This document shows positions 13,869 through 39,326 of a stretch of DNA of 52,649 nt, piece by piece. Numbering within the stretch: position 1 is the stretch's first letter; every line of letters starts with the position of its first letter. The stretch is from NCBI RefSeq assembly GCF_004010105.1, contig NZ_RRYE01000004.1, positions 1 through 52,649 of the forward strand, read 5' to 3'. Made by a program: the position numbers and the translations under genes. Source of the DNA: Microbacterium sp. CPCC 204701 (GTDB lineage: Bacteria; Actinomycetota; Actinomycetes; Actinomycetales; Microbacteriaceae). Below the pieces are notes generated by a model. The model was not told the DNA's origin, ran no database searches, and saw only the letters and a list, made by a program, of their open reading frames with translations.

Positions 13869-14459
13869 CTACTCGACGGCGCTGCCTATGGGAAGGCTGT
13901 CGCGAAGCAGGTGCCGCTCTCGGCGGACGCGAAGGAGTGCTCGTACGGCAACGTAGATCCCGAGCGGCACGATCGTCGCCCAGAGGATCTTGCCGACCAT
14001 CTGGCCAACGATGCTCTCGAACATGAGCGGGAACCCAGCGATCCAAAGGAAGAGCACCGTGTCGACCGGCGCCGACACACAGTTCGAGATCAGAGCGGCG
14101 CGAACGAAGCCCCGAGGCCGGATCCACAGGAACACCAGCATGTCAGCGAGCTCGGCGACGAGGAAAGCCACCGCGGACGCCATCGCGAGCGCAGGGGTCG
14201 CGAGGAACCACGACAGGATGACCCCCACCGCGATGCCGAGCAGCACGCCCCTAACGCCGAGGTAGGTATGCACGAAGTCCCGCGATAGTAGCGCGAAGCC
14301 AGCAGCGTACGTTCCGGCGGTAACCACAAGGCCAAAACCGACCGGAACGAGGCCGAAGTGGGCCGACAGGATGTTCGCCGCCACAATCGCCCCGATGTAG
14401 ACGAAGAGCGCAATAGCGCCCTTGATCAGGTTTCGACGGTCAGGGGCTTCGGGACTCAT
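13869..14459 (-). CDS. VUT-family (YhhQ-like) preQ0/queuosine-precursor transporter
   Basis: A 196-aa integral membrane protein with about six hydrophobic helices and the hallmarks of the YhhQ/VUT (DUF165) family: a first helix ending AANILS, a TAGTYAAGFALLSRDFVH segment, and a SNCVSAPVDTVLFL motif in the fifth helix. YhhQ imports preQ0 and related 7-deazaguanines in E. coli. As the last gene of an operon otherwise making preQ0, it probably salvages preQ0 from outside. The ATG overlaps the folE2 stop by four bases. Import is inferred from family and context; export cannot be ruled out. Confidence 0.82.
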   Translation of the reverse strand: MSPEAPDRRNLIKGAIALFVYIGAIVAANILSAHFGLVPVGFGLVVTAGTYAAGFALLSRDFVHTYLGVRGVLLGIAVGVILSWFLATPALAMASAVAFLVAELADMLVFLWIRPRGFVRAALISNCVSAPVDTVLFLWIAGFPLMFESIVGQMVGKILWATIVPLGIYVAVRALLRVRRERHLLRDSLPIGSAVE

Positions 14460-15280
14460 GAGGTTTCCTGCTTGCTGGTGTTAGGCGCCCACGACAGAGA
14501 GGCAATCGCGTCGTGGCTGTGGATGCTCTCGAAGTTGCGGACATGGATCGAGTGCCTGAGCCCGCGAGCACGGCATGTCGATGAGAGTTCTCGGACCATG
14601 TCCTCGACAAACGCGGGATGGTCGTATGCCTCCATCGTGATCCATCTCTCATCGGGTCGCTTGATCACCGGATAGATGGGGCAGGAGCCAACCTGGCGCG
14701 CGAGCGAGAACATCTCGCTGAGAGTCAGCGGGTAGAGGTCATTCTGACCACCGGTGATCGATAGCGTCACCGCGCTCCGCTGATTGTGGGCGCCGTAGTC
14801 GCTGATCGCCTTGCTGCAAGGGCACAAGCTCGTCACGTGGGTCGTTAGCGTCGTGGTCATTGCGGCCGACTCGGCCGATCCCTCGACGGAGAAGTTTACG
14901 TCGGCCGCCTGCCAGGCCAGCACGTCAGACACAGGTGCGCGAACCTCGAACGAGACGGGCAGATCGAACGAGATGCGTGCGCTCGCAGCGCCGAGCCGGT
15001 TGGCCGCACCAGCCACCAGCGCAGCCGCTCCCCTGGGGTCGAACTCACGCAACTCCGCGGCAATGGTTTCGACCATTCGGCTCATGTGGGTACCGCGGCG
15101 ATCCGAGTCGAGTGTCACCACGAACTCGGCCGAACCCACGCCGGCAGCATCCACCTCGCCGTCCGTGATCCGGATCGGGGTACGAACGCCGGTCACCCCC
15201 ACCGAGTCGAGGGCGATGCCGCGAGGGTCCTGCTGGTTCTGGATGTCGGGCAGAGCCTGCGTCATCTCCGGCAGCATCAT
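14456..15280 (-). CDS. folE2: GTP cyclohydrolase FolE2 (type IB)
   Basis: A 274-aa type IB GTP cyclohydrolase converting GTP to dihydroneopterin triphosphate, the first step to preQ0. The N-terminal signature LPDIQNQQDPRGIALDSVGV and the active-site CPCSKAIS-x-YGAHNQRS segment are typical of FolE2 rather than FolE. The ATG at 15280 forms an ATGA overlap with queD. The frame stays open to 15580 but that extension lies inside queD, so it is rejected. FolE2 enzymes work without strict zinc dependence. The gene gives the island its own feed into the deazaguanine pathway, separate from host folate synthesis. Confidence 0.93.
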   Translation of the reverse strand: MMLPEMTQALPDIQNQQDPRGIALDSVGVTGVRTPIRITDGEVDAAGVGSAEFVVTLDSDRRGTHMSRMVETIAAELREFDPRGAAALVAGAANRLGAASARISFDLPVSFEVRAPVSDVLAWQAADVNFSVEGSAESAAMTTTLTTHVTSLCPCSKAISDYGAHNQRSAVTLSITGGQNDLYPLTLSEMFSLARQVGSCPIYPVIKRPDERWITMEAYDHPAFVEDMVRELSSTCRARGLRHSIHVRNFESIHSHDAIASLSWAPNTSKQETS

Positions 15281-15660
15281 TCGCCTCCGTTCGATTGGCC
15301 ACGATAGGTGCACCGCGAGCGCGGCGTCTCGCTCACAACGATCGTGTGAAGGAGTGGAAGTTCGCCACTGAGTCGCTCCCACAACCAACGAGCCAGGTGC
15401 TCGCTTGTCGGGTTCTCGAGACCGTCGATCTCGTTGAGGAGGCGATGATCGAGTTGCTTGCCGATGGGAGCGAATGCCGCCGACAGATCGCCGAAGTCCT
15501 GGACGAAGCCCGTGTCCTCGTCGACGGCACCGCGTACCTGCACCTCGACCGTGTAGGAGTGCCCGTGCATGCGACCACACTTGTGTCCCTCGGGGACATT
15601 TGGCAGGTAGTGCGCAGACTCGAAAGAGAACTGTCGCGCCAACTCGGCGTAGAAGGTCAT
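15277..15660 (-). CDS. queD: 6-carboxytetrahydropterin synthase QueD
   Basis: A 127-aa member of the PTPS/QueD family that turns dihydroneopterin triphosphate into 6-carboxy-tetrahydropterin. The zinc histidines are visible in FSFESAHYL and MHGHSY, the catalytic cysteine in HKCGRMHGH, and LDHRLLNE carries the conserved Asp-His pair. The start chosen (MTFYAEL) makes an ATGA overlap with the queE stop; the 15702 start would intrude further into queE. Length is normal for QueD. Confidence 0.93.
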   Translation of the reverse strand: MTFYAELARQFSFESAHYLPNVPEGHKCGRMHGHSYTVEVQVRGAVDEDTGFVQDFGDLSAAFAPIGKQLDHRLLNEIDGLENPTSEHLARWLWERLSGELPLLHTIVVSETPRSRCTYRGQSNGGE

Positions 15661-16292
15661 GCGATTCCTAGGTACTTGTGTGTCTGCAGGCTGAGTTGCC
15701 ACGTCGGGTGGTTTAGGCAGTAGTCGACGGCGAGTGCGGTGTTCGCCGCGGCATCGGGGCCGTCCATCGGTTGAACACGAAACGTGCCGAACTCCAGGTG
15801 TTCGAAACTCGCGGGGTCAACACCCTTCTGCGGATAGACGAACTTGAGCTCATCACCCTGCTTCACAACCAGTTCCGAGCCGATCTTTGGGCTCACACAG
15901 AGCCAGTCGATTCCTGCTGGCGGTACCCGGGTGCCGTTGGTCTCGACCGCGACGTAGAAGCCGCGGCGGTGGAGTGCTTCAATGGCGGGCTCGTCGAGTT
16001 GCAGCAGTGGCTCGCCGCCCGTACAGACGACCATTCGATTCGACGTCCACCCGGACGGCCACGCGGCCTCAACTGCGTCGGCGAGGTCTTCTGGTGTGGC
16101 GAAGTTGCCGCCACCCGGGCCGTCAGTCCCGACGAAGTCCGTGTCGCAGAACTGACAGATGGCACGCGGACGATCTCGCTCGCGCCCGGTCCAGAGGTTG
16201 CAAAGGCTGAACCTGCAAAAGACAGCGGGGCGCCCGGCGTGTGTTCCCTCTCCCTGAAGGGTGTAGAAGATTTCCTTGACCTTGTAGGACAT
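15657..16292 (-). CDS. queE: 7-carboxy-7-deazaguanine synthase QueE
   Basis: A 211-aa radical SAM enzyme that contracts carboxytetrahydropterin to 7-carboxy-7-deazaguanine. The N-terminal YTLQGEGTHAGRPA motif is diagnostic. The Fe-S cysteines are C31, C46 and C49, a C-x14-C-x2-C arrangement characteristic of one QueE subfamily in place of the usual CxxxCxxC. The GGEPLLQ motif follows. The ATG of MSYKVKEI overlaps the queC stop by one base (TAATG). Upstream in-frame Met codons lie in queC and are rejected. Confidence 0.93.
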   Translation of the reverse strand: MSYKVKEIFYTLQGEGTHAGRPAVFCRFSLCNLWTGRERDRPRAICQFCDTDFVGTDGPGGGNFATPEDLADAVEAAWPSGWTSNRMVVCTGGEPLLQLDEPAIEALHRRGFYVAVETNGTRVPPAGIDWLCVSPKIGSELVVKQGDELKFVYPQKGVDPASFEHLEFGTFRVQPMDGPDAAANTALAVDYCLNHPTWQLSLQTHKYLGIA

Positions 16293-16987
16293 TAGGCCGC
16301 TTGGTAGGCGACCGGGTCGCTCGCCCCAGCCTCCTGGAATCCTCGAATGCGCAGCAGGCAGGAATCGCAGTGCCCGCATGATCGGCCGGATTCGTCGGGG
16401 TCGTAGCAGGACAACGTCAGTGAGTAATCGACGCCGAGTTCGGTGCCCGCCCGGACGATGTCTGCCTTCGTCATGGAGATCAGCGGGGCGTGGATCTTCA
16501 GACGCGCGCCCTCAACGCCGGCGCGAGTGGCGAGGTTCGCCATGGTCTCATACGCCTCGATGTACTCCGGCCGACAGTCGGGGTAGCCGGAGTAGTCAAG
16601 TGCGTTGACCCCGATAAAGATGTCAGCTGCACCCACAACCTCGGCGAATGCGAGGGCGAAGGAAAGGAAGATCGTGTTTCGTGCCGGCACGTACGTGACC
16701 GGAATCTCCTCTGCGGCGAGTTCCTCGGCGCTGTCATGCTTGGGCACGTCGGTCTCGGAGGTGAGCGCCGACCCTCCAAACGTCCTCAAGTCGATGTCGC
16801 AGACGACGTGTTGCGCAATGCCCTGTGCTTGCGCGACGCGCTTTGCCGCTTCGAGCTCCACGACGTGGCGCTGACCGTACCGGAAGCTCAGGGCGTACGG
16901 TTCGTAGCCCTGGCTCTTTGCGATGGCGAGAACCGTCGTGGAGTCGAGGCCACCGCTGAGGAGAACAACTGCCTTGCGCTGGGACAT
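16292..16987 (-). CDS. queC: 7-cyano-7-deazaguanine (preQ0) synthase QueC
   Basis: A 231-aa PP-loop ATPase that converts CDG to preQ0 with ammonia and ATP. The PP-loop SGGLDS sits at residues 11-16. The middle has FRYGQRH and [15 protein letters not shown], and the C-terminus has the zinc site [10 protein letters not shown] preceded by another Cys in LSCYDPDE. The ATG at 16987 is preceded by GGAGG at ideal spacing; the longer frame to 17323 crosses the divergent promoter and is rejected. First gene of the operon queC-queE-queD-folE2-transporter. No QueF is present, so the pathway stops at preQ0, the substrate expected for DpdA. Confidence 0.95.
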
Positions 16988-17087
16988 GTGAGCCTCCGCC
17001 CTTTCTGAGGATTGCACGCACCGCAATGATAGACGGAAACTGCGGGGTGCAGTAGCATCGAAACACACGCAGTTAGGTGGTGTCACG
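16988..17087. promoter_or_regulatory. Divergent promoter region between queC and the dpd modification operon
   Basis: A 100-base gap separates the two divergent operons. It contains two short inverted repeats, ATTGC-x7-GCAAT (17011-17027) and ACTGC-x5-GCAGT (17039-17053), and AT-richer hexamers (TGATAG, TAGCAT) that could serve as -10 boxes in either direction. The repeats could be operators that co-regulate preQ0 supply and DNA insertion. I see no preQ1-type riboswitch fold here. Confidence 0.4.
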
Positions 17088-17969
17088 TTGTCGCAGAAAC
17101 TCACGATCGTCGTGACCTGCACCGACCGCAAGTCCCTCGCTGTGCCTGAACTGAGGATGCGGCGCTCGCTACCCGACTCACCCTCCGCGGTGTCTACCTG
17201 GACTAAACGCATCGAGTCTGCTGAGCCTGTAGTTCCGCTGCGGATGCTGTACCAGGGCGATGCATGGTCGCAACTCCCTCGACTAGAGGCAGCGTCGCGC
17301 ATGGCCGGGTTCGAGCCCACCACCTACGTCGCATCCGCTGGACTCGGCCTGCGCAGGGTTTCAGCTGTTGGACCAGCCTACGGGGCAACGTTCACACCAA
17401 ACCAACCCGACTCGATCCCAGGTCCTGTAGAGCAGCAGAGGGCGTGGTGGGACGGGTTGAACGAGTGGAATGGATCCCGGGGCGAGATCCCCGAAGGAAC
17501 TCCCACGCTCTTTGTCCTCTCTCAGCGCTATGCAGATGTGCTCGCTCCGTTAGTAGCCAAGGCGGCTGTCGCGAACTCCGTGCTCGTCGTTGGCGGGTCG
17601 AGCGCCATCGCCCCTTCGCTGAGGCTCCCGGCCGACGCGAAGCTCCGATCCGCACTTGGCGGCACGCTTGGTGCGCTGAATATGCGTACCGCCGTCGCCT
17701 GGATGGAGCGACTGACGGGCCCCGTCATTGACTCGCCTCGAAATCGGGCGGCGTGGAGCACGTGGGCGGAGGGCGCTAGACGAGATGAACAGTACCGGCG
17801 CACGCCGCTCGGTGACGATGAGGTCCTTGAAGCGGTCCGGCTTATCAGAACTCAACAACCGACCATCAGTCGGACTCGCGCGCTCCGCATCCTTCGGGAC
17901 AACGGCTTCGCGTGCGAGCAAAAGCGCTTCGCGCAACTCTTCGAAAGCGCCCATGGAGGAGCATCGTGA
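17088..17969 (+). CDS. YaaA/DUF6884-like protein at the head of the dpd modification operon
   Basis: A 293-aa protein. The N-terminus [12 protein letters not shown] is the strand-then-Cys/Lys motif of YaaA/DUF6884-type proteins. Further on, [23 protein letters not shown] matches their SA-x-x-GL ... P-Y-x-x-T pattern, and [13 protein letters not shown] resembles the later strand-helix. A C-terminal helical part ([15 protein letters not shown]) resembles a small HTH. It starts at a TTG with AGGTGG upstream and ends in a GTGA overlap with the next gene. Characterised dpd clusters need a third gene, dpdC, to convert preQ0 in DNA to the amide. By elimination this gene is a candidate for that step, but I cannot confirm homology. 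Confidence 0.5.
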
Positions 17970-19096
17970 CTCAGGAGTGGATTGAGCGACGCGCGCTGCG
18001 GGTCCTTCAGGGCGAGATCCCGCTTTACCTCTTCACGCTCGCCGCTGAGGAAGTTGATCAGGTCGCCGATGTGGCGCGCATCTCGCGTGACAAGGCCGGC
18101 AAACTCATCGGCTACCAACGACCCGAGAAGCGAAAGCACGTCAACCAGATTCAGGAGTATCTCGATGGGGATGATGTGCTCTTCCCCAACGGTTTGATCC
18201 TCGCGCTCCCACCAGAGGTGCGATTCAAGTCGAGTCGCGGGCCCGGCGTGAACGACGGGCTTGCCGTCGCAGGCACACTCGAGATACCCATCGTCAACGG
18301 GGAAGGTGGCCCCCGACCTGCATGGATTGTTGACGGTCAGCAGCGAAGCCTCGCGCTCGCGCGCACTCGCAATCGCCGCCTGCCTGTACCCGTCGCCGGG
18401 TTCGTCACCGAAGATCTCGAGATTCAGCGCGAGCAGTTCCTCCGCGTGAACACCGTGCAGCCGCTCCCCGTTGGGTTGGTGACGGAGCTTCTGCCGGAGA
18501 TTGCACGCGTCCCGTCGGCGCGTCTTTCCACCAGACAACTGCCGTCCGCACTCGTGGACATGCTCAATATGGACCCCGAATCACCCTTCTTCGGCTTGAT
18601 CCGCCGTGCGTCGACGGCGACCGAGGACCGGCCCAACGCCGTGGTGACGGACACAGGGCTTGTTGAGGCGCTGCGTGAGTCGGTCGAGTCTCCGTCTGGC
18701 GTGCTGTTCCCCTACCGGAACATCGCGGCCGGCACCACCGACACTGAAGGCATCCGGCGTACCCTTCTCGTCTACTGGACGGCAGTTAGGGAGACATTCC
18801 CTTCGGCATGGGGCAAGAGCCCGTCAGAGTCCCGCCTCATGGGGGGCGTCGGCATTCGGGCAATGGGGCGCTTGATGGAGCGCGTCATGGCACACGTCGA
18901 TGTGAACTCGGAGGATGCCGCGGCGCAGACTCGGCTCGAGATTGGACGAATAGCGCCCCAATGCCACTGGACGAGTGGCACGTGGACGGACCTCGGGCTC
19001 CCCTGGGACGAACTCCAGAACACCCCCCGACACATCAGCGCACTCTCGAACTTCCTCGCTCGCGCATATCTCGCGGAAAGGTCGGCCGCGCGATGA
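17966..19096 (+). CDS. dpdB: DGQHR-domain protein, DpdB-like (copy 1)
   Basis: A 376-aa DndB/DpdB-type protein. GYQRPEKRKHV at residues 49-59 and VDGQQRSLA with DGQQR at 123-127 form the ParB/DGQHR nucleotide-binding core; REQFLRVNTVQPLP follows. DpdB is an ATPase needed with DpdA to put preQ0 into DNA in Salmonella. The GTG at 17966 has GGAGGAG upstream and a GTGA overlap; the longer frame from 17912 is rejected. Its stop overlaps dpdA (ATGA). A second protein of identical length and identical motif positions lies just after dpdA. Which of the two is the functional DpdB cannot be told here; both may be required. Confidence 0.82.
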   Translation: MTQEWIERRALRVLQGEIPLYLFTLAAEEVDQVADVARISRDKAGKLIGYQRPEKRKHVNQIQEYLDGDDVLFPNGLILALPPEVRFKSSRGPGVNDGLAVAGTLEIPIVNGEGGPRPAWIVDGQQRSLALARTRNRRLPVPVAGFVTEDLEIQREQFLRVNTVQPLPVGLVTELLPEIARVPSARLSTRQLPSALVDMLNMDPESPFFGLIRRASTATEDRPNAVVTDTGLVEALRESVESPSGVLFPYRNIAAGTTDTEGIRRTLLVYWTAVRETFPSAWGKSPSESRLMGGVGIRAMGRLMERVMAHVDVNSEDAAAQTRLEIGRIAPQCHWTSGTWTDLGLPWDELQNTPRHISALSNFLARAYLAERSAAR

Positions 19097-20331
19097 AGTT
19101 CTTCTTCCCCGACAGCCAAGATCTCGTCAGCCCGACATACGACTTTGAGCACGATGAGTACCTTCCGACCCGTGTGAGGCAGCGCGACGACCGCTATGCG
19201 CACGAGGTCCTCGACTCCCCGCCCTATCACGGCATCCTTGTCAGCAAGGCAATCGTCGATGGAAGCGTCTCAGGGTCCGGCAAGTACACCTCGTCGCAGA
19301 GGGCGCGGCTCTACCGAATGGGTGTCCGGCGGTTCTTCCGTCTTCCCGCCGGGATCGAGACGCTCGGCGACAACGGAGCCTTCAATTACGTCGCTGAGGA
19401 GGTTCCCCCGGTAACCGTGGACGAGACCCTCGACTTCTACGAGGAGTGTGGTTTCGACGCCGGAGTGAGCGTCGACCACATCATTTTCGGCTATGAGAGT
19501 GCGGCGGGTTTGGACGACGTCGACCCCGCCTGGAGCAACCGGCGTGAACTCACACTGCAGTTGGCTTCCGACTTCCTCCGGCGCGTGGAAGAACGCGGCT
19601 CCCAGATTCAGCCTGTCGGCGCCGCGCAGGGTTGGAGTCCTGTGAGCTATGCCGACAGCGTGGCCCGTCTGCAGGAGATGGGTTACACGCGTATCGCGCT
19701 CGGAGGCATGGTCCCACTCAGAACGAAAGACGTTCTTGAGTGCCTTCAAGAGATCGACAGAGTACGCAACCCGTCAACGGAACTGCACCTGCTTGGATTG
19801 ACGCGTGTCGACGCGATGGACGAGTTCGCGAAACTCGGCGTGACGAGTTTCGACAGCACCTCACCCTTCCGACAAGCGTTCATGGACGATCGGAACAACT
19901 TCCATACACCGAACGGTGCGCACGTCGCTCTCCGCGTGCCGCAGGTGGATGGCAACCCGACTCTCCGCCGTGCAATCCTCGCGGGAACCGTCTCACAGCA
20001 AGACGCGATCGCGGCTGAGCGAAGCACACTGAAGGCGCTTCGCGCCCTGGACGGATCACGCATCGCGATCGACCGCGCTCTCGACGCCCTCGGTCATTAT
20101 GAGACTGTCGTGGGAGGCTCAAAGAAGAGCTACCTACCCGCGTATGAGCAGACGCTGGTGGCTGCTCCCTGGGAAGACTGTCGTTGCCGACTGTGCCGCA
20201 CGCACGGGGTCGAGATCGCGATCTTCCGCGGGACCGAACGCAACAAACGTCGCGGCTTCCACAACCTGACCGTCCTCGCCGCAAAGGTGGCGGCCCTCAC
20301 CGACCGGAGTTCGTCCCCTTCCCATGCCTAA
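19093..20331 (+). CDS. dpdA: DpdA, TGT-like DNA 7-deazaguanine transglycosylase
   Basis: A 412-aa homologue of tRNA-guanine transglycosylase that acts on DNA, exchanging guanine for preQ0. The first active-site Asp lies in DNGAFNY (D93, equivalent to the DSGGFQ motif of TGT), GGM at 204-206 matches the base-binding GGL loop, and the nucleophile Asp is D254 in FDSTSPFR, replacing the FDCVLPTR of tRNA enzymes. The zinc site is C363, C365, C368 and H390 (CRCRLC ... H). A DndB-like gene on each side and the preQ0 operon make the DNA role much more likely than a tRNA role. The ATG overlaps the previous stop by four bases; the frame open from 18808 is rejected. Confidence 0.92.
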   Translation: MKFFFPDSQDLVSPTYDFEHDEYLPTRVRQRDDRYAHEVLDSPPYHGILVSKAIVDGSVSGSGKYTSSQRARLYRMGVRRFFRLPAGIETLGDNGAFNYVAEEVPPVTVDETLDFYEECGFDAGVSVDHIIFGYESAAGLDDVDPAWSNRRELTLQLASDFLRRVEERGSQIQPVGAAQGWSPVSYADSVARLQEMGYTRIALGGMVPLRTKDVLECLQEIDRVRNPSTELHLLGLTRVDAMDEFAKLGVTSFDSTSPFRQAFMDDRNNFHTPNGAHVALRVPQVDGNPTLRRAILAGTVSQQDAIAAERSTLKALRALDGSRIAIDRALDALGHYETVVGGSKKSYLPAYEQTLVAAPWEDCRCRLCRTHGVEIAIFRGTERNKRRGFHNLTVLAAKVAALTDRSSSPSHA

Positions 20332-21454
20332 GCAGACCATCGTTCTCCCCGCGATCCGGATCCGACAGGGAAACCAGTTCATCTTCGCCTTCGGCATTGA
20401 TGGAAAGCGCGTGCACGAGTTCGCCGCCGTCAGTCGCGTGCACCGTACCGATCAGACGCTAGCCGGATACCAGCGACCCGAGGTTCTTTCCCACATCCGC
20501 GCAATTCGGCGATACCTCGAGACGGATGCTGCGATCCTCCCCAACGCGATCGTTCTGGCGTTCGACGATCGCGTCGAATTCAGGCCACTGGATGCCGGCG
20601 CGTCGGAGGCCGCGTACTCGACGGTTGGCCACTTGATCATTCCGGTCGATACCGGTCTTGCCGATGACGAAAAGCCCGCTTGGCTCGTCGATGGACAGCA
20701 GCGAAGCGCCGCGATTCGTGACGCTGACGTCGACGAGTTCCCCGTGGCAGCCGTCGGTTTTATCGCCAAGGACGAGGCCGAACAGCGGTCGCAGTTCATC
20801 CTGGTGAACAACACCAAGCCACTTCCGAAGGGCCTGATCCACGAACTCCTGCCGGCGACGTCGGCTGAACTCCCCGCGGCGTACGCACGTCGCCGTCTAC
20901 CGGCATCCGTGCTAAACATCCTGAACTTTGGGGTAGGCGGCGGCGAAGGCCCCTTCACCGGTCGGATCAGCACCCCAACGATGGCCACCGGCTACATTCG
21001 CGACAACAGCGTTCTCAAGATGATCGAGAACAGCCTCTACGAGGGTGCGCTCTACCAGTACCGCAACCCCGAGGACGGCACGGGCGACATTCCGTCGATC
21101 CTGATGCACCTGAATCACTTCTGGGGAGCGGTGGAGCGGGTCTTCCCACTCGAGTGGCGCCTTCCCCCGACGAAGTCGCGCCTCACCCACGGCGCTGGAA
21201 TCCAGTCTCTGGGCTATGTCATGGATTCGTTGACCGAGGGCGTACCAGCGGCGGAACTCCCAGGCCTTGGCATCGAAGAGATCCTGGTGGATCTGCGAGA
21301 GCACTGCGCCTGGACCGACGGCACGTGGAACTTCGGCCCCGACCAGGTTCGCCGATGGAACGGCATCCAGAACACCCCGAACGACGTGCGCCTGTTGACG
21401 AGCCACCTCTTGCGCGTTGTGCGGACGTCAGGATCGCTTGCTGCTCAGCGATAG
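20324..21454 (+). CDS. dpdB: DGQHR-domain protein, DpdB-like (copy 2)
   Basis: A 376-aa paralogue of the gene at 17966. GYQRPEVLSHI (residues 49-59), DGQQR (123-127) and QFILVNNTKPLP lie at the same places. The shared C-terminal pattern is CAWTDGTW ... IQNTPNDV against CHWTSGTW ... LQNTPRHI in copy 1, so the two arose by duplication. Surface sequence differs widely between them, as expected for an old duplication with division of labour, for example a heteromeric ATPase. The ATG overlaps the dpdA stop by eight bases. The stop is only 16 bases from the stop of the convergent dpdD. Confidence 0.82.
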   Translation: MPKQTIVLPAIRIRQGNQFIFAFGIDGKRVHEFAAVSRVHRTDQTLAGYQRPEVLSHIRAIRRYLETDAAILPNAIVLAFDDRVEFRPLDAGASEAAYSTVGHLIIPVDTGLADDEKPAWLVDGQQRSAAIRDADVDEFPVAAVGFIAKDEAEQRSQFILVNNTKPLPKGLIHELLPATSAELPAAYARRRLPASVLNILNFGVGGGEGPFTGRISTPTMATGYIRDNSVLKMIENSLYEGALYQYRNPEDGTGDIPSILMHLNHFWGAVERVFPLEWRLPPTKSRLTHGAGIQSLGYVMDSLTEGVPAAELPGLGIEEILVDLREHCAWTDGTWNFGPDQVRRWNGIQNTPNDVRLLTSHLLRVVRTSGSLAAQR

Positions 21455-21470
21455 GCACAGTCCCGAAGTC

Positions 21471-23597: not shown

Positions 23598-24097
23598 CGA
23601 GTCCGAAGCTCGAGCCGTTGCTTCGCCGCCTCGGCCAATCCCACCTCGAACTCAAGACTCTCTTCATTTCGCTGAACGCCGTTCCAGGTGAAATTCATAG
23701 ATCCTTTCAGCACCCAGGACCAGCCGACCATCATCTTCTCGTGCAGTTCAGCGCTGGAATAGACATGGAGCGCATCGCTCACGCTGACCCGCGAGAGCCG
23801 ATCGACGAAGAGTTGGTTGTGATCTTCCTGCCGAAGCGCAACGTGCAACTGCGTCCCGCGCCTCGTGAGCGCCCCGAGCGCCTCACTAAGGGTCATCTGC
23901 GACCGTGGCTCGGCCCCCATCACGGCATCGAATTGGCGATCCGCATTGTTCAGCACCGGAATGTCTGTGACCCACCCGGAGACCAGCCAGAGCTCTTCAC
24001 TCGGCCAGCACAACTCGGAAACGATAGCCGCCGTAAGTACATCGCTAATTGCCAGGCCGTTGCGCGGCCGCGTCCGCACCATTCTCCGTCCGCTCAC
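23576..24097 (-). CDS. dpdK: DpdK, phospholipase D-like nuclease
   Basis: A 173-aa protein with a single HKD motif: H119-x-K121 (ELHEKMMVG) followed by G132-S133-M-N135 (KGSMNFTWNG), the layout of PLD-superfamily nucleases such as BfiI and Nuc, which dimerise to build one active site. Its size fits a minimal PLD nuclease. In Dpd systems DpdK is the clearest candidate for the DNA-cutting component. The ATG overlaps the dpdJ stop by four bases. Confidence 0.82.
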   Translation of the reverse strand: MSGRRMVRTRPRNGLAISDVLTAAIVSELCWPSEELWLVSGWVTDIPVLNNADRQFDAVMGAEPRSQMTLSEALGALTRRGTQLHVALRQEDHNQLFVDRLSRVSVSDALHVYSSAELHEKMMVGWSWVLKGSMNFTWNGVQRNEESLEFEVGLAEAAKQRLELRTRWIGGSA

Positions 24098-28476: not shown

Positions 28477-29141
28477 GACAGCGAGAGGTACAACTGGTCG
28501 CGTAGCGTCTCGTCCGCCCGCAGCAACTCGAGTTCTTCGTCGGTGATGTCGGAAAGGCGGATTCTGCCCTGAACGAAGCGATTCAGCACAGCGTTTGCTC
28601 CCGCGCTTTCGATCTCCGCGAGGTCGTCCCTCACACGACGCCAAAGAGCCTGGAACTCATCGATGGCCGCAAGACTTGGAGGCTTACCAGCGCTCTTCTG
28701 CAGGGTCAGCACGCGAGCCTCGGTGTTACGGCGATCAAACCCGAGCATGGGGATCAGAGTCGTGGCCAGGTTTGAGATCTGGCCGTCTGCCCAGGAGGCC
28801 CAAGCCTGAGTATCTGCTGCTGCTAGTTCGCTGTTGACGCGTTCGAGTCGGATGACACGCGCATTGATGTGCCGCCAAGTCGGACGACCAGTGCGATTGA
28901 TCTGGTCACGAAGGTCACGCGGAGCCGAGCCTAGGTCTGGCAGGTTGTGGACGGGTGCGCCGATCTCCCCCAGACGACGATGGATCTCGAGAGCCGCGCC
29001 GAGCTTCGTGAGTTCCACGCTCAATTTGTCGATCTGAGCCTGAAGGCGACGCTGTTCTTGCGAATCGGTTTCCGATTCCCGCTTCGCCCTAGCGATGGCC
29101 GCCAATCGTCGTGCGTCGTCGGCGAGCGTTGTTTCACTCAC
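28473..29141 (-). CDS. dpdI: DpdI-like protein
   Basis: A 222-aa, strongly helical protein with no enzyme motif. Residues 1-60 (ARRLAAIARAKRES, QAQIDKLSVELTKLG) should form a coiled coil, and the rest is charged helices with a RIRLSDITDEELELL end. It lies between the ATPase DpdH and the helicase DpdJ and is assigned by synteny. A GTG at 29141 has GGAGG eight bases upstream and overlaps the dpdH stop; the ATG at 29147 has the same GGAGG almost against it, so the GTG is preferred. Possibly an adaptor between the two motors. Confidence 0.6.
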   Translation of the reverse strand: MSETTLADDARRLAAIARAKRESETDSQEQRRLQAQIDKLSVELTKLGAALEIHRRLGEIGAPVHNLPDLGSAPRDLRDQINRTGRPTWRHINARVIRLERVNSELAAADTQAWASWADGQISNLATTLIPMLGFDRRNTEARVLTLQKSAGKPPSLAAIDEFQALWRRVRDDLAEIESAGANAVLNRFVQGRIRLSDITDEELELLRADETLRDQLYLSLS

Positions 29142-32133: not shown

Positions 32134-32981
32134 CCCTTGACTGTCACTGTCGAGACGTAGCGGCTACGACCGAAATCCTGCGCATCCGGTAGGGCCATGA
32201 CGCCGGATGGATCAGATTGATAGGCCATGGTCAGCACGCCCCTTTGTTCGGCGCTCGACAGTGCCAGACCGAGCACCCTCAGACTGGACTCATCATCTGC
32301 TGCCATACCGTCATACGTCGCGCTTGGATGGCCGGGCAGCACGGGCAGCTCGGCCCGCAGAAAGCTCAGCAACTCTCCGATGGGGAGCTGCTCCCCGCGT
32401 GGGAGCGGGTCGCCAAACGGAGCACGGATAGCATCGATGACTGCCTCCGTCGGGTCGGGAACAATCTTCGCCCGCTGACTCGCGTTCTTTGACAGCGCTG
32501 CCAACGCCGGCCGACTGAAGCCCAGTGCCTGACTCCACAGCCGAAACCCGTTCCACCGGGTGTCGTTGACGAACGGATTTCCAGTCGCCTCCGTCTGAAC
32601 CGTGTCGTAGTCGAGTGGAAGCATCGGGGCCTGCCGCATCAGCCACACGAGTCCGGCACGCAGGTCCGGTGCACCAACATAGTCAGGGCCTTCATCCGAC
32701 GGGGCGACAACGGCACGGCGACGAAGGAGACGCACGAACTGCGAAGCACCGTCAATGGACTCTGCCGACAGAGCCCCGCTCTCGTCTTGCTGTACCAAGC
32801 GGAAGTCACGCAATCCAGACAGGGCTCGCTTGCCGTGCTGCGTTTGCGATGCGAGCCCCTCGGGCACGACCATCGCAATGACCTCGTCCGGGCCTAGCCC
32901 GGGCGAGGTCATGATCACCTGGTAGGTCAGCCACATGGTTTGTGGCAGGCAGAGCGCAGGGCTCGGGTTCAGGACATCCAC
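32130..32981 (-). CDS. dpdG: DpdG-like protein
   Basis: A 283-aa protein without a recognised catalytic motif. The N-terminal part looks like a winged-helix arrangement (GPDEVIAMVVPEG, HGKRALSGLRDFRLV), followed by ATGNPFVNDTRWNGFRLWSQALGF and a mixed C-terminus ending SRYVSTVTVKG. It starts at a GTG with AAGGA upstream, immediately after dpdF, and overlaps dpdH. Assigned as DpdG by position between the RecQ-like helicase and the ATPase. A DNA- or protein-binding role is plausible. Confidence 0.62.
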   Translation of the reverse strand: MDVLNPSPALCLPQTMWLTYQVIMTSPGLGPDEVIAMVVPEGLASQTQHGKRALSGLRDFRLVQQDESGALSAESIDGASQFVRLLRRRAVVAPSDEGPDYVGAPDLRAGLVWLMRQAPMLPLDYDTVQTEATGNPFVNDTRWNGFRLWSQALGFSRPALAALSKNASQRAKIVPDPTEAVIDAIRAPFGDPLPRGEQLPIGELLSFLRAELPVLPGHPSATYDGMAADDESSLRVLGLALSSAEQRGVLTMAYQSDPSGVMALPDAQDFGRSRYVSTVTVKG

Positions 32982-32982
32982 G

Positions 32983-35532
32983 TCAGAGTTCCTTCATAAG
33001 TGCGCGTACTGAGATCGAGTCTTGGGCGTCGCGTCGCGACCAGCCTGGCCGATCCGGGTTGGGAGTTTCCTTTGGTCCCAAGATGTATGACACGTCTCCC
33101 AAGTTATTGCGCTCCAGCGCCGCGTCAGGTATCTGGGGTTCGTCGAGGATGAACGCGACTGGCCCGGAGTACGACTGTGCGAGAGGCGCTACGGAAGTCG
33201 GGTCATCCAGCACGATCGGCGTATGCGCTGCGGCGCGCTGCAACTTCACGCCCGCTTGCGCGTTCAACCCGGCGAAAACGCGAACCTCACGTTGCGCCAT
33301 CCGCACCAAGAGTGGTTCAACGTCTTCCCCGTCGTCATACCAGACAAACAGCGTCGGATTGTCTCCCCGCCACCTCGCCAATGGATCCGGCCGAGTCGAA
33401 GGCTCAGGCAGACTCGGAACCGGTTCGGCTGGATTGGGCGGGGCCGATGACGGATCACGGCGACAGGACGGACAACCCCTGCACGACGGCTGCGTGATGA
33501 GCAGGCCACCGCCGTGTGAGACCCGATAGTGCTTCGCGATTCGCCGGCCTACGCACTCTGCACCCGACGCGAGCCCTTGCGACGATGTCAGTGCATGGCG
33601 TTGTGCCTCTCTCACCTGGTCGCGAACCTTGCCCATCGCTGAAGTCCACCCGCTGTGGCTGAGGTGCTCGCCGTTCTTCAACTCAAACTCGATGTAGTCC
33701 TCGACCTGCTCGAAGAACTTGGCGCGAGCCTCCTCCACCTCGTCCACTGAGGCGAGAGGATCCGGAGTGAACTGGGGTACCCGCAGTTCGATGATGCCCG
33801 CCTGGGCCATGAGTGTGAGAGTCCTGACGTTCCATGCCGCGCTACGCCCGTATCCCTGGTCGAGGTGCTCCGGCAACTCGCTCTTTCGTACTCGGAAGCG
33901 AAGTTCAGTGAGGGCTACGCTGCCTCGACGCAGTTGCTCCCACCGCTTCCAGCCCACCTCGTCGCCAATCATCGTGACGTCACTCAGTCGTTCAGCGAGC
34001 CGATGGTCACCGGGGCCGATTGAGAGGTACGCGACGGAGGGCCTTCCATCCCGTCCCGAACGACCCACCTCCTGGTAGTAACGGTCAATCGTCTCGGGTA
34101 GACACGCATGGATAACAGTTCGGACGTTCGGCATGTCAAGTCCGAGACCAAACGCGGAAGTCCCGACCACGATGTCGTACCCGGTCGCGGCGCCTTCCGA
34201 GCCGCGCCACTGCTCCATTACTTTTCGACGCTGTTCGTCAGACGACTTACCCGTCACAGCACCGACTCGGTTGAAGCCGGCGTCGTTCAATCGTCGAAGC
34301 CATGCAGTGGCATCTTCGACCCTGGTGACGTAAAGAACCAGTGGGCGCGGAAGGCAACTGACTGCCTTGAGGACCGCTGCGAGTCGTGAGTCTTCCTCTG
34401 TATGCGAGTCGATGAAGTAGGCCGGCTCTGTACGGAGTTCCGAACCCCACACCACTTGCGCACGCGAGTCTCCGACAGAGAAGAGTGTCGTCAGCAGGTC
34501 GACCGGGCGTTGAGCGAGGGTTGCGCTCAGAAGGAGGACCGACGGCTTACGTCCCTGAGGCGCGTTGGCGTATGCGTCGCGAATTAGGCCCGGCATGGTC
34601 TGAAACTCTGGCCGGAAGTCGGTACCCCATTGATCGACGAGGTGAGCTTCGTCAATGACGACCTGTTGCAGCAATCCCGCTTCAGCACATGCGAGCATCG
34701 CCGGAGCGAGCCCCGACACGAACGCTTCGGGAGACGTGTAGAGAAGTCGCTGACTGCCCGATCGCACCGCCTCACGCAACTGAGCCTTGGTGTCGGCATC
34801 GAGCGAGCCGACGTAAGCGTACCGGCCGAGGGGGCTGAGGTGGATGCCCCGCTCGCGCGCCAATTCTTGGGTTCGGCGTTCCATGTCGAGAGCAAGCACG
34901 ACGGTTGGAACGACGATGACTGTAACTCCGCTTGTGGACAGGAGAACTTTGCTCCACGCAACTGCTGTCTTGCCCCGACCGGTGGGGAGACAGATGACGA
35001 GCGAACCTTCGTCGTTCAGTACCGCTGCTCGGGCGGCCTGCCTCTGCGGCTCACCACGATACGTCGGATAGCGGTGAGCTTCCTTCCAGAAGGGATCGGC
35101 TTCGATGAGGCGTAACTCGTTAGGCTCGACGTCCTTATACACGTCCCGGACCTGACGCCGAGCGGCGTCCCGGCCGACGTTGCCGCCTTCGGGAGTTGCG
35201 GGGGGCTCCCAATCCAGAGCCCGGATGGACAGACGACCGTCCGCCAGTCTCGTCGCTTGACATTCAAGGTCTTCCCACTGAACCGCCGTGGGCCAAAGAG
35301 GAGAGTTTGGTACCGCAAGAACGCGATCGCCGCCATAAGTCTCCTCCGCAATGAGAAGCACCTGTCGGACGAGCGCCGCGACGTCGCGCCAACCGGACCT
35401 GCCGACCTCGAAACCGCTGAGCGCGTCCAGCAGGCGCCTACAGGCATCCGAGATGTCGAGGCCGCTTGCGGATACGACTTCGGGCCACCGTTCAAGTGCG
35501 GATTGTGCGGCCGAAATGTCATCGCTCGACAT
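32983..35532 (-). CDS. dpdF: DpdF, RecQ-like helicase
   Basis: An 849-aa helicase. A 150-residue N-terminal extension precedes motif I PTGRGKT (183-189), motif II DEAH (294-297) in the RecQ-style VVIDEAHLVDQWGTDFRPEF, motif III LLLSATL and motif VI RYYQEVGRSGRDGRPS. A C-rich spot, CRGCPSCRR, may be a zinc site. A C-terminal domain of about 150 residues follows. It overlaps dpdE by 14 bases and abuts dpdG. The RecQ-type core and the operon position identify it as DpdF. Confidence 0.85.
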   Translation of the reverse strand: MSSDDISAAQSALERWPEVVSASGLDISDACRRLLDALSGFEVGRSGWRDVAALVRQVLLIAEETYGGDRVLAVPNSPLWPTAVQWEDLECQATRLADGRLSIRALDWEPPATPEGGNVGRDAARRQVRDVYKDVEPNELRLIEADPFWKEAHRYPTYRGEPQRQAARAAVLNDEGSLVICLPTGRGKTAVAWSKVLLSTSGVTVIVVPTVVLALDMERRTQELARERGIHLSPLGRYAYVGSLDADTKAQLREAVRSGSQRLLYTSPEAFVSGLAPAMLACAEAGLLQQVVIDEAHLVDQWGTDFRPEFQTMPGLIRDAYANAPQGRKPSVLLLSATLAQRPVDLLTTLFSVGDSRAQVVWGSELRTEPAYFIDSHTEEDSRLAAVLKAVSCLPRPLVLYVTRVEDATAWLRRLNDAGFNRVGAVTGKSSDEQRRKVMEQWRGSEGAATGYDIVVGTSAFGLGLDMPNVRTVIHACLPETIDRYYQEVGRSGRDGRPSVAYLSIGPGDHRLAERLSDVTMIGDEVGWKRWEQLRRGSVALTELRFRVRKSELPEHLDQGYGRSAAWNVRTLTLMAQAGIIELRVPQFTPDPLASVDEVEEARAKFFEQVEDYIEFELKNGEHLSHSGWTSAMGKVRDQVREAQRHALTSSQGLASGAECVGRRIAKHYRVSHGGGLLITQPSCRGCPSCRRDPSSAPPNPAEPVPSLPEPSTRPDPLARWRGDNPTLFVWYDDGEDVEPLLVRMAQREVRVFAGLNAQAGVKLQRAAAHTPIVLDDPTSVAPLAQSYSGPVAFILDEPQIPDAALERNNLGDVSYILGPKETPNPDRPGWSRRDAQDSISVRALMKEL

Positions 35533-38500
35533 ATGCCCCCCATGGCTGAGCCGAGACCACGACGCACGTCACGCCGCTCAGCCGGATGACGGGACTGACA
35601 ACTCCCGCTTCGAGTGCTTGCCCAATCGCAACCTCAAACTCGAGTGCTGAAGGATCGCCCACCAGACCAGTGGCCTGCGCACGAGCCCGACTCTGCGCGA
35701 TGACTATCTCGGTCTCGCGTCGCACCTTCAGCGCGGCTTGCTCGGAAACGACGGTGACGTCGTCGAGAGCCACGACGTAGCGCTGAGCCGCCTCGAAGCA
35801 TGCTGTCGCGATGGGAGCGAGATTCTGCTCGCCACCAAGAATAGAGTGAAGCGCTGGAATCCGCTTGTAGTTCAGATTCTGATCCGGTCCGAGTTCGAAG
35901 GGGCGGTCCAAGTAGGCGATGAAGTTAAGGCTCGTTATGGGCTCCTGTGTGTTGACAGGAACCCACACCCGCCGGCGCTGCGGGGGAAACGCGGCATCCG
36001 CACGTCGACGCGCGACCGGTTCAACGATGGGGTCGCCTTCCAGCACCTGAAGCATCGGGTCGAGGTCCGCCTCAATAAGAAAGTCGAAGCCAAAGAACGT
36101 GAATGGATCGTTCGGCCAGCGCGGATCGAGTCTCCACATCGCCACCGCCTGCCCCCGGTCGTCCAGGTTAAGAAGGCTTTCGATGCCGTCAACGAATGGA
36201 TTGCCGCGGCGGAAGAGTCTTTCGCCGGGATGCAAACGCCATCTGTCGAAGGAGCCCGTCCGCGCCGCATCGACAGACATCAATCGGGCAAGCAGACGCG
36301 GGCTGAACAGCGGTTGCTCCATCGGGTCCCGACCAAAGGTGAGGGTTCCGCCCTTGTCGCGCGACGCCGTCAGCCGGAAACCCTCTGCGCTCGTCACTAA
36401 CCGAAGGTAGGCATCCTCGAGGTCGCGCGGACTCTCCTCGTACCGCGCGATCGACGCCGCGATCGACTCCCCATCGGAGTGGGTCCCGAAGCTCGACTCT
36501 AGAGCGTCCAGTTCGTTGATTCGACTCCGCTCCTTCTGGAGTTGATTCCGGATCCCGTCGCTTCGTTCGAGGAACGCCTCAACTCCGTCGGTCGCGCAGG
36601 CAGCCCATGTATCGAGCGCAATCTCGTCGGCTGCCTCCTGGAGAGCGGAGATCGAGTTGCTGAATATCTCGAATCCTGATGCGAGGAGTCGTAGCCAGGA
36701 GTCAAGGATCTCGCCGCGCTCACCCGCGACCACCACGTACTGCTGGGCGGGAGCGCTGTCGCCGTAGCGATCCACGCGACCGATCCTCTGCTCCAGCGCG
36801 TTCGGACTCCACGGCATCCGCGCGTGGAAGACGAAAGCCGCGTCCTGAAAGTTCTTACCGACTTCACCACTTTCATCGACAACCAGGAGCCCGCCCGAGG
36901 TGCGCCACTGAAACACCGCATGTTCACGTTGAGCCTCGGTTTGATCGCTAACGTGCGCGTGCACTCGGGATGCCCATCCGGAAGCATTGCGAACTGCCCC
37001 GACGAGATTCTCGGCCAGCGACCCACGCCCGCAGAATACGACCGCGCGAGAAGTTGAGTTCATACGGCCAACGAAGGCGCCAACGAGGGCGCCGAGGCCG
37101 TCGGAGATACTCAACGCCTTGAGTTGATCCAATACATGCGACTCAAACTCGTGGACGGGGGCAGCGTTCAGAATCGCGCGTTCTACCGGGTCCAGTGCAG
37201 AGTCGTCAAGGGCCGCCCCATGGCGATACTCCAGGATCGCGACGAGGTCGTTGACAGGCCCACCAACTCGCGAAGCCAATACTCCCAGCACGTGGCCGTA
37301 GAGCGCTGCGTCGATGCTGTCGTCAAGAATCGCGGCGGCACAGCCGGCCGCCCAATCTGCGACTGCCCGCGCGCCGGCCGTGTCCTCCATGCTCTCCTCG
37401 AGGCGGATAGCCTTCGGACGCGTCCGGCCGGTGAACTCGAACGGTGTCAGGAGTCCGTCATCGTCCAACTTCTGGCGAGCGATCTCATGACGCCGATTGC
37501 GAATCACACGGTGATGAAGTCGATAAGTCTCTGAGATGTGAGTGCGGACTGTCTCCACGGCTGTGCGGAGCGCATCTTCATCAACCTGCTGCGTGACATC
37601 GCCGTTCCTTTCGAAAACGGCCATCGCGCGTGCCATCGCCTCCCGCAGGACTTCGTCCCCGGGAATCAGTGAGCGAATCTCGTCGAACTGGAGCTCGAGC
37701 AACTCCGGGTTATCTGGGTCCGGGTCCGGGTCCAGGCCAAAGACGGCGAACGCGAGTTCGCGCCGCGCCGACAACAATTGCTCGAAGTGCTCCCGCTCCT
37801 CCCATCGAAACAACTGCGGATCCAGCAGGTGCAGCAGTGCGAGGTGCGTGGTGGCGCTACGAGCGAACGGGGTCGCAGAGAGCATAAGCACTCGAGGTGC
37901 GGCATGTGCGAGCCTTGCGAGTTCGGCGTATGGCCGCGTGTCCGGCGAGTTTGTGTTCGCCAGGAGGTGCGCCTCGTCGACCACCAGAAGTTCGACGTCC
38001 TGAAGGTCGTGCCAACGTGAGACTTCGGAGTGCCCCAAAATCTCGTACGGCGACCCACCGCGCCCAGTTGGGAAATCATCGAGATGGAACTTGCCCCGGA
38101 GTTCCGAGCGCCACTGGGCCATCAGCGCGTCCGGCACGATCAGTCCGATGCGTCGCCCGGGTTGGTCGATGAGCAACTGCCGCATGACAAGGCCGGCTTG
38201 AATGGTCTTACCCATGCCTACCTCGTCAGCAAGCAGGTAGCGCTGGACGGGGTCACGAATAATGCGAAGTGCGGCGCTGACCTGGTGAGCGTGAATCCGT
38301 ACACCGGCCGACATGATCCCCGTAGCAGAGGCCGTCGCAGCCCGCTCCTCCAGCAGTAGACGTCGCACGGGCTCGCGGGCGTCCCGGTAACGGGGTGTCT
38401 CATTGGCTCCGCTCAGCAGAACCTGCAGCGGATCACGGGGCGTCTTGTCCCATCGCGTGTACAGGTGTCGTTCGTCGATCTCCACCCGCCCATCGACGTT

Positions 38501-38761
38501 CGGGACCTTGACGTAGTAGAACCCATCCCTCGCCCCGATCACTCGGCCGGCGCGCCAGCGTTCATCCCCATCCCGAAAGAAAACGCGGGTCTCCTCCTCA
38601 AGTTGGACCCTCCGAACGAGAGATATCGGCTTCCACACAGATTCTGCGCGAGGTTCGGCGGCCGACTCGAAGAAGTCAACCCTGACTTGCGAGTCCTCAG
38701 TCTGGCCAACCCGGCCGATGCCCGGTGCACCTGCGAAGGTGACGAAGCTTCCAACCCTCAC
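35519..38761 (-). CDS. dpdE: DpdE, SNF2-family helicase
   Basis: A 1080-aa SNF2/RapA-like translocase. The N-terminus has two small beta-barrel-like segments (RVGSFVTFAGAPGIGRV, WRAGRVIGARDGFYYVKVPN) reminiscent of the Tudor-like domains in RapA. Motif I is DEVGMGKT (179-186), motif II DEAH (262-265), motif III LMLSATPFA and motif VI EQRIGRVDRYG. A GTG start with GGGGAG upstream opens the eight-gene operon dpdE-F-G-H-I-J-K-D. The C-terminal 350 residues have no known motif. The family and lead position fit DpdE. Confidence 0.87.
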   Translation of the reverse strand: MRVGSFVTFAGAPGIGRVGQTEDSQVRVDFFESAAEPRAESVWKPISLVRRVQLEEETRVFFRDGDERWRAGRVIGARDGFYYVKVPNVDGRVEIDERHLYTRWDKTPRDPLQVLLSGANETPRYRDAREPVRRLLLEERAATASATGIMSAGVRIHAHQVSAALRIIRDPVQRYLLADEVGMGKTIQAGLVMRQLLIDQPGRRIGLIVPDALMAQWRSELRGKFHLDDFPTGRGGSPYEILGHSEVSRWHDLQDVELLVVDEAHLLANTNSPDTRPYAELARLAHAAPRVLMLSATPFARSATTHLALLHLLDPQLFRWEEREHFEQLLSARRELAFAVFGLDPDPDPDNPELLELQFDEIRSLIPGDEVLREAMARAMAVFERNGDVTQQVDEDALRTAVETVRTHISETYRLHHRVIRNRRHEIARQKLDDDGLLTPFEFTGRTRPKAIRLEESMEDTAGARAVADWAAGCAAAILDDSIDAALYGHVLGVLASRVGGPVNDLVAILEYRHGAALDDSALDPVERAILNAAPVHEFESHVLDQLKALSISDGLGALVGAFVGRMNSTSRAVVFCGRGSLAENLVGAVRNASGWASRVHAHVSDQTEAQREHAVFQWRTSGGLLVVDESGEVGKNFQDAAFVFHARMPWSPNALEQRIGRVDRYGDSAPAQQYVVVAGERGEILDSWLRLLASGFEIFSNSISALQEAADEIALDTWAACATDGVEAFLERSDGIRNQLQKERSRINELDALESSFGTHSDGESIAASIARYEESPRDLEDAYLRLVTSAEGFRLTASRDKGGTLTFGRDPMEQPLFSPRLLARLMSVDAARTGSFDRWRLHPGERLFRRGNPFVDGIESLLNLDDRGQAVAMWRLDPRWPNDPFTFFGFDFLIEADLDPMLQVLEGDPIVEPVARRRADAAFPPQRRRVWVPVNTQEPITSLNFIAYLDRPFELGPDQNLNYKRIPALHSILGGEQNLAPIATACFEAAQRYVVALDDVTVVSEQAALKVRRETEIVIAQSRARAQATGLVGDPSALEFEVAIGQALEAGVVSPVIRLSGVTCVVVSAQPWGAYVER

Positions 38762-39251: not shown

Positions 39252-39326
39252 TGGTGCCCCCGGAGGGATTCGAACCCCCGACCCGCTCCTTAGGACGGAG
39301 TGGCTCTTCCACTGAGCTACGGAGGC
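39252..39326 (-). tRNA. tRNA-Arg (anticodon CCU)
   Basis: A complete 75-base cloverleaf read leftward from 39326. It has a 7-bp acceptor stem (GCCTCCG with CGGGGGC, one T-G wobble), a D stem GCTC/GAGC, anticodon loop GTCCTAA giving CCU, a TTCGAAT T loop and an encoded CCA (39252-39254). The top pair of the anticodon stem is an A-C mismatch. It lies between the dpd block and the zeta-toxin module, so it is either chromosomal and an old insertion point or a passenger of the element. Confidence 0.93.

Follow-up and report, generated by a model that had tools for sequence, protein, structure and literature searches.

The window analysed here, the whole of contig NZ_RRYE01000004.1 from Microbacterium sp. 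CPCC 204701 (52,649 bases), very probably carries a complete, self-supplying Dpd modification–restriction system on an integrated element, for which both the modified nucleoside 2'-deoxy-7-amido-7-deazaguanosine (dADG) and restriction are predicted. The Dpd island occupies positions 13869-38761 and contains 17 genes, each open without an internal stop. On the left, the genes for the supply of 7-cyano-7-deazaguanine (preQ0) lie on the minus strand in the order VUT-folE2-queD-queE-queC; in the middle, dpdC-dpdB1-dpdA-dpdB2 lie on the plus strand; and on the right dpdD-K-J-I-H-G-F-E return to the minus strand, dpdD being closest to dpdB2 and dpdE first in the reading direction. Since queC and dpdC are only ∼100 bases apart, the two operons that begin with them probably share a divergent promoter region. 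The G+C content of the island is 0.61–0.64, as against 0.65–0.71 from 40 kb onwards. Gene starts were refined from the starts of profile matches and from ribosome-binding sites, that of folE2 being picked from a Shine–Dalgarno sequence and the profile start. The host assembly comprises 3.62 Mb in 641 contigs and is 98.4% complete.

An initial annotation of this DNA had proposed a Dpd modification–restriction island here, with all parts intact and key catalytic residues in place. Profile searches (PADLOC, NCBIfam and Pfam) agree with it, the named parts lying where it had put them and all 17 frames being open; the comparison with the Dpd families which it had suggested gave matches for DpdA to DpdF, DpdH, DpdJ and DpdK. 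Its list of parts needs amending, however, in that dpdC had been overlooked, DpdI is placed by position only and DpdG is weakly matched and below the cut-off. Similarly, the catalytic motifs were found in DpdA, QueC, QueE, the helicases DpdE, DpdF and DpdJ, the P-loop of DpdH and DpdK, whereas DpdC, DpdD, DpdG and DpdI offer no motif that could be checked. Seen directly are the gene content and order, these motifs and the family membership, and nothing points to a rival use of preQ0 in tRNA.

A predicted DNA-guanine transglycosylase

The gene dpdA (19093-20331, plus strand) matches NF041059 with an E-value of 6.2e-178 and the PADLOC profile with 8.5e-180. Against the Pfam model for tRNA-guanine transglycosylase (TGT), in contrast, it scores 19.9 bits, below the cut-off of 26.3. 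The only solved relative found by phmmer is PDB 7UI4, named 'DNA-guanine transglycosylase', which aligns over residues 1-399 (E 6e-119) with a few small indels. The two Asp motifs, GDxGAF and DST(S/T)P, line up between the proteins, as do CxCxxC and GFHN; by analogy with TGTs, these are taken to hold the catalytic and zinc residues.

The initial annotation had raised the question of whether DpdA groups with the tRNA enzymes. A tree of 21 DpdA and 15 TGT sequences sets DpdA apart by one separating branch (support 100/100, recovered in all 200 bootstrap trees). The TGT sequences in this tree were weak matches of the DpdA model, labelled by motif (SGGFQ in 14 of 15, CxCxxC in all 15). Judged from its sequence, DpdA belongs with the enzymes that act on DNA and not with the tRNA TGTs.

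dpdC and the expected mark

The gene dpdC (17088-17969, plus strand) is predicted to encode the enzyme that converts 2'-deoxy-7-cyano-7-deazaguanosine (dPreQ0) to dADG. Its product matches PADLOC profile PDLC02817 over residues 3-287 (5.3e-92). In an alignment of seven sequences, including the Enterobacter gene found at the same place and two from alphaproteobacteria, SAGLG is kept in all seven and residues S261, T263, L266, R270, E277, R280 and F281 are invariant. The formation of dADG in S. Montevideo requires dpdC (PMC11888242). Because dpdC is present in the island and is required for dADG in that organism, the expected mark, given earlier as 'dPreQ0 or dADG', narrows to mainly dADG, which would be made via dPreQ0. 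We infer the activity of DpdC from its full-length family match and its conservation.

For comparison, we used 11 actinobacterial loci, namely the window, Microbacterium sp. B35-30, two Agromyces, Leifsonia flava, four Nocardioides and two Nocardia; the ten besides the window were picked by similarity of their DpdA to that of the window, and the sample is biased to that extent. In comparisons with the window, identity is lower for dpdC (34–87%) than for dpdA (64–94%), and some validated islands are described as not giving dADG (PMC11888242). Both points would suit an island that stops at dPreQ0, the cyano mark, with DpdC inactive or acting on another substrate. However, DpdC is intact, is matched over almost its full length and has residues in common with the Enterobacter gene, and dpdC was found by tblastn in all 11 loci (partially in L016, a cut contig) as well as in G446, the other genome of the phylum sample with a DpdA above the cut-off in the family search. 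We consider it unlikely that the island stops at dPreQ0, and keep dADG as its predicted main product.

Intactness and distribution of the island

A DpdA above the family cut-off was detected in two genomes of a 398-genome sample of the bacterial family and in two of a 396-genome sample of the phylum, with the host itself counted both times. This rarity fits a sporadic, transferred island, and it is also what might be expected if the island were inactive, or passenger DNA in decay. However, none of the 17 frames is broken and the motifs are intact wherever they can be checked. The nearest island, that of Microbacterium sp. B35-30 (locus L018), also has the same genes at 80–98% identity over the part read. 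Decay or inactivity thus seems very unlikely, less likely still than a mark that stops at dPreQ0.

Supply of preQ0

The island itself contains a source of preQ0 in folE2, queD, queE and queC, all on the minus strand. The first step would be catalysed by the GTP cyclohydrolase FolE2 (14456-15280), which is above the cut-off for Pfam GCHY-1 (1.1e-67) and, at 214.1 bits, just below that of the NCBIfam model (215). QueD (15277-15660), a 6-carboxytetrahydropterin synthase, matches TIGR03367 (1.2e-30) and PTPS (125 bits); QueE (15657-16292), a 7-carboxy-7-deazaguanine synthase of the Cx14CxxC type with its motif present, matches TIGR04508 (2.9e-102); and QueC (16292-16987), the preQ0 synthase, matches Pfam QueC (1e-79) and has both SGGLDS and a Cys cluster. 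These last three all exceed their NCBIfam cut-offs. At the left end, a VUT/YhhQ-type transporter (13869-14459, minus strand), probably for uptake of preQ0 or a precursor, is above the cut-off for Pfam Vut_1 (1.1e-10) and below that for TIGR00697 (33.8 bits against 50.95). The transporter is no fixed part of such islands, since tblastn found it in five of the 11 actinobacterial loci.

In the host genome, DpdA is the sole match to the TGT fold, and the island genes are the sole matches for QueC and for QueE, the latter as searched with one QueE model, of a different QueE subtype, which gave a weak match. QueA had no match in the host genome, and the same model matches 9 of 14 control genomes. 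As judged by the TGT, QueA, QueC and QueE models, it is unlikely that the host itself makes queuosine, and because none of the four was found outside the island with the models searched, the preQ0 pathway of the island looks dedicated to DNA. The notion that the preQ0 genes work for tRNA queuosine or for a secondary metabolite, and stand beside the dpd genes by chance, could draw on a second PTPS-fold match in the host genome (on contig C501), but we give it practically no credence in view of a host genome with no TGT other than DpdA and no QueA match, and of preQ0 genes that adjoin dpdC in 10 of the 11 actinobacterial loci (the exception being a cut contig of 7.7 kb) and dpdB2 in all five alphaproteobacterial loci with two DpdB genes. 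Given a complete, self-supplying island, and with no queuosine genes elsewhere in the host according to the models searched, any 7-deazaguanine in the cell would be traceable to DNA marking.

The restriction genes

The eight genes of the right-hand block are all on the minus strand. Seven of them have a PADLOC match: dpdD (21471-23597; PDLC02839, 1.8e-231), dpdK (23576-24097; PDLC02901, 5.1e-62), dpdJ (24094-28476; PDLC02896), dpdH (29134-32133; PDLC02891), dpdG (32130-32981; PDLC02874, 7.2e-5), dpdF (32983-35532; PDLC02872) and dpdE (35519-38761; PDLC02843). The matches of DpdE, DpdF, DpdH and DpdJ extend almost from end to end and their E-values are printed as 0. DpdJ is a YprA-type helicase with Walker A, DEAH and motif VI, DpdF a DEAD/DEAH helicase and DpdE an SNF2-type helicase, both with their motifs intact, and DpdH a P-loop ATPase with GESGAGKS. 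DpdK, the probable cutter, is a phospholipase D (PLD)-type nuclease in which HxK and GSMN are kept in all nine aligned proteins, that of Enterobacter included. Such a pattern fits an active PLD nuclease, the Asp that often comes next in the motif being Trp here.

The remaining gene (28473-29147) is presumed to be dpdI from its position between dpdH and dpdJ. An AlphaFold model of its product is all-helical, with a mean predicted local distance difference test score (pLDDT) of 77.4, and tblastn located the gene in this position in 9 of the 11 actinobacterial loci, the window included. The other two loci are the cut contig L016 and L012, in which the restriction block has a different arrangement and the stretch ends within dpdH. 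NF041066 matches the Enterobacter protein in the corresponding position (4.4e-31; 108.7 bits, below the cut-off of 150), and neither the window protein nor four actinobacterial relatives were matched by this model. Direct comparison of the presumed DpdI with the Enterobacter protein by hhalign gave a weak match (E 0.0023, probability 12.7%).

Predicted pathway and points against it

By analogy with the named relatives, every enzymatic step, as well as the dADG end product and a restriction phenotype, can be predicted for the island. FolE2, QueD, QueE and QueC would convert GTP to preQ0, which VUT may also import. DpdA, helped by the DpdB ATPase, would then exchange guanine for preQ0 at certain sites in DNA, and DpdC would convert the nitrile to the amide, that is, dPreQ0 to dADG, to give the mark of self; the roles of DpdB as an ATPase and DpdC as a hydrolase are those given in PMC12839542. 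DpdE, F, G, H, I, J, K and D would act on unmarked incoming DNA, with cleavage most likely due to the DpdK nuclease, and loading or translocation to the three helicases. The eight associated genes are reported to lower transformation, and their restriction activity is described as little explored (PMC12707154).

Several observations weigh against a complete and active system. DpdG is in the right place, yet it reaches only 59.3 bits (3.8e-16) with NF041064, for which the cut-off is 80, and the presumed DpdI matches no DpdI family in PADLOC, NCBIfam or Pfam. As already mentioned, some validated islands do not yield dADG (PMC11888242). DpdB is described as possibly dispensable in certain clusters (PMC12839542), which counts also against a strict need for it. 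Finally, with the assembly in 641 contigs, a gene elsewhere in the host genome may have been overlooked.

Two DpdB proteins flank DpdA

The two DpdB-like proteins of the initial annotation are borne out. Both are DGQHR/DpdB proteins encoded on the plus strand, DpdB1 (17966-19096) 5' of dpdA, with 390 bits for NF041060 (cut-off 300) and a PADLOC match of 5.3e-141, and DpdB2 (20324-21454) 3' of it, matching PDLC02811 with 8e-144. They are 34% identical to each other. The order dpdC-dpdB1-dpdA-dpdB2 on one strand recurs in all 11 actinobacterial loci, the window included, the cut contig L016 retaining only the tail of dpdC. The same order in G446, where DpdA is 52% identical, makes this 12 of 12.

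Among plasmid records, 25 had a DpdA match, and 10 of these were opened. In five, all alphaproteobacterial, dpdA again stands between two dpdB genes. An Enterobacter plasmid locus has a single dpdB, in two cyanobacterial loci a distant DGQHR/DndB gene lies on the opposite strand, and in the Paenibacillus and Acetobacter loci DpdB was neither annotated nor found by tblastn. In a tree of 37 DpdB sequences, from which G446 was left out, 16 DpdB1 sequences from both phyla fall on one side of a branch with support of 100/100, and 16 DpdB2 sequences are grouped with support of 89/71, in 91% of 200 bootstrap trees. DGQQR is kept in all 16 sequences of each group. N. PD653 also has a third DGQHR protein, which does not stand for DpdB2 in the tree. 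The lone Enterobacter DpdB joins at the base of the DpdB1 side on a long branch flagged as unsure by the program, and its nearest relative by tblastn is a DpdB2 (46%). Because the two groups separate in the tree, the motif is kept and the window pair is 34% identical, DpdB1 and DpdB2 are, on the evidence of the tree and alignments, an old and maintained duplication rather than a recent copy. This conserved set raises the question of the role of the second DpdB, which could not be answered in a system with a single DpdB.

Dpd islands with additional dpdB copies have been published before, the copies numbering 801 (PMC11888242). We did not meet the fixed B1-A-B2 layout or the two DpdB clades in the passages seen of PMC11888242, PMC12839542 and PMC12458937 or in the titles and abstracts among the matches listed, and make no claim of newness. 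As regards structure, phmmer found no solved relative of DpdB2 up to an E-value of 0.1, and a Foldseek search of the PDB with a model of DpdB1 (mean pLDDT 78.2; predicted template modelling score, pTM, 0.53) gave no match at E ≤ 0.001. ParB and SspE chains were among the weak Foldseek matches of DpdB1 (the best ParB at 0.19) and were not used as evidence.

Some further loci were noted in passing. Myxococcus phage Mx4 and a derivative (OK085710 and OR576728; 6377-7414) encode a DpdB-like protein (36.8%), although neither turned up in the search for DpdA. The only DpdA match among 50,697 phage-collection records was MT835580, an unverified faecal 'Bacteriophage sp.' record (locus L057, 11078-24002) with a dpdC-like piece, dpdB1-dpdA-dpdB2, queE, queD, queC and a DpdJ-like helicase, which may be a mislabelled bacterial island. 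The Acetobacter plasmid (L054, 8001-9359) has dpdA and an upstream hypothetical gene; neither the annotation nor tblastn shows a gene for DpdB or for preQ0 synthesis in its stretch. The Paenibacillus plasmid island (L049, 15001-18132) has two TGT-fold genes, dpdA and one annotated as queuine tRNA-ribosyltransferase, with no DpdB detected.

Exchange of modification and restriction cassettes

Comparison of related islands indicates that the modification cassette and the restriction cassette have been exchanged separately. Agromyces humi and A. ramosus have in common a block of 7,474 bases at 97.0% identity, which starts within VUT and ends within dpdB2; the other pieces aligned by blastn are at most 1,049 bases long, at 67–88% identity. 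The DpdB1, DpdA, DpdB2, QueC and QueE proteins of this pair are 98% identical, as against 49% for DpdD, DpdK and DpdJ. The same disparity is seen between Nocardioides Yes46-02 and N. jensenii (97% for modification and 56% for restriction proteins). In N. caeni, dpdE-F-G-H follow directly after dpdB2 on the same strand, opposite to the window, and are 28–34% identical. Such exchange is occasional, because the modification and restriction identities are still correlated (Spearman 0.62 over 36 pairs of nine loci, the pairs not being independent; L012 and L016 were excluded as the compared genes are missing there).

Putting these observations together, we tentatively suggest, as a possibility that we hold to be somewhat less than even, a two-DpdB machine in actinobacteria and alphaproteobacteria, in which the two DpdB proteins, as old paralogues, have separate and non-redundant roles in serving a single DpdA (they might, for instance, form a mixed DpdB1–DpdB2 ATPase that sets the target site), and whose modification and restriction cassettes are traded independently, a shared mark being read by different restriction modules. 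The A. humi and A. ramosus islands form a natural pair, with near-identical marking genes and different restriction genes, that would be useful for finding out how the mark is read.

The carrying element

The genes for conjugation and integration that the initial annotation had placed next to the island are present in part. To the left lies a TrwC-type relaxase/helicase (6430-9441, minus strand; Pfam TrwC, 1.1e-29), and to the right are an excisionase-like helix-turn-helix (HTH) protein (39340-39717, minus strand; HTH_17, 1.3e-8; excisionase family phrog_66, 3.5e-7) and a tyrosine integrase (44221-45348, plus strand; Phage_integrase, 1.5e-21; phrog_1, 5.2e-62). No gene for a secretion apparatus was seen among the proteins scanned, which did not cover every frame and were not searched specifically for one, the left part of the element being off the contig. 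A gene for single-stranded DNA-binding protein lies at the left edge of the window. A relaxase that is 70% identical stands beside the dpd genes of Microbacterium sp. B35-30; a search of the stretches from eight further actinobacterial loci did not find it there.

The right edge of the element is probably the 3' end of the tRNA-Ser(GCT) gene (46867-46958, minus strand; ARAGORN), which would be the attachment site. Synteny with two genomes of the same genus (G407 and G409) starts at 46868/46869, at this 3' end, and continues rightwards, where the genes resemble, by eye, those for LytR and seryl-tRNA synthetase. A further genome (G410) has repeated pieces of the tRNA 3' end at a greater distance, as expected for an integration hot spot. 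The left end lies beyond the contig, and no second exact piece of 14–18 bases from the tRNAs, as an attachment repeat, was found within the window. A tRNA-Arg(CCT) gene was also considered as an edge and dropped: contig C590 has a second copy, and for both copies the tRNA is all that the surroundings have in common with those in G409.

Other features of the element may be listed briefly. This tRNA-Arg(CCT) gene (39252-39326, minus strand) lies inside the element beside dpdE, the second host copy being 88% alike. Between the relaxase and the island (9529-13196, minus strand), a ResIII-type helicase of 801 residues is paired with an unassigned 420-residue protein that has weak matches to candidate defence families (PDC-M38A, 2.6e-9; PD-Lambda-5_A), and the pair is possibly a second defence system. 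A Zeta-toxin-like kinase (40171-41175, plus strand; Pfam, 8.9e-26) is encoded in the right part. A second stretch, at G000:C1:24038-24135, is 82% alike to 46793-46890, which covers the tRNA-Ser 3' end and the element side of it; this second stretch is perhaps the trace of a related element.

Comparison with known systems

The system is of a known kind: Dpd islands have been published, including some from actinobacteria, as have additional copies of dpdB and neighbouring preQ0 genes, and the islands of S. Montevideo and Kineococcus radiotolerans modify DNA (PMC11888242). By identity of DpdA, the nearest named islands are those of Microbacterium (94%), Agromyces (88–89%) and Leifsonia (86%). Over the parts read, Microbacterium sp. 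B35-30, A. humi, A. ramosus and L. flava have the same content and layout as the window, VUT and folE2 included, but the restriction modules of A. ramosus and L. flava are clearly different, with dpdD, dpdK, dpdJ and dpdI 28–52% identical to the window.

The Enterobacter cloacae plasmid pPOL9A (NZ_CP086409) is more distant, with a DpdA 46% identical. A dpdC-type gene, dpdA and dpdB are on one strand and face dpdD-K-J-(I)-H-G-F-E, as in the window, but dpdB is single and no preQ0 genes were annotated or found by tblastn in the 41-kb stretch. We take this island to be of the S. Montevideo or enterobacterial kind. The alphaproteobacterial plasmids (Sinorhizobium, Agrobacterium, Methylobacterium, Skermanella and Bradyrhizobium) share dpdB-dpdA-dpdB, followed by queE-queD-queC, with the queC of Skermanella found by tblastn only and VUT annotated in three. 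They differ in that DpdA is 39–41% identical and the preQ0 genes come after dpdB2 on the same strand; within 8–12 kb on each side, tblastn found dpdC in three of the five and no restriction gene save dpdF and dpdH in Methylobacterium. Finally, the BRIGADE systems of halophilic archaea (PMC12458937) resemble the island in that genes for 7-deazaguanine stand together with a YprA-type helicase and, as a rule, with a PLD nuclease. They usually have two YprA helicases and are confined to haloarchaea, whereas the window island has one DpdJ-type helicase together with the bacterial dpd set.

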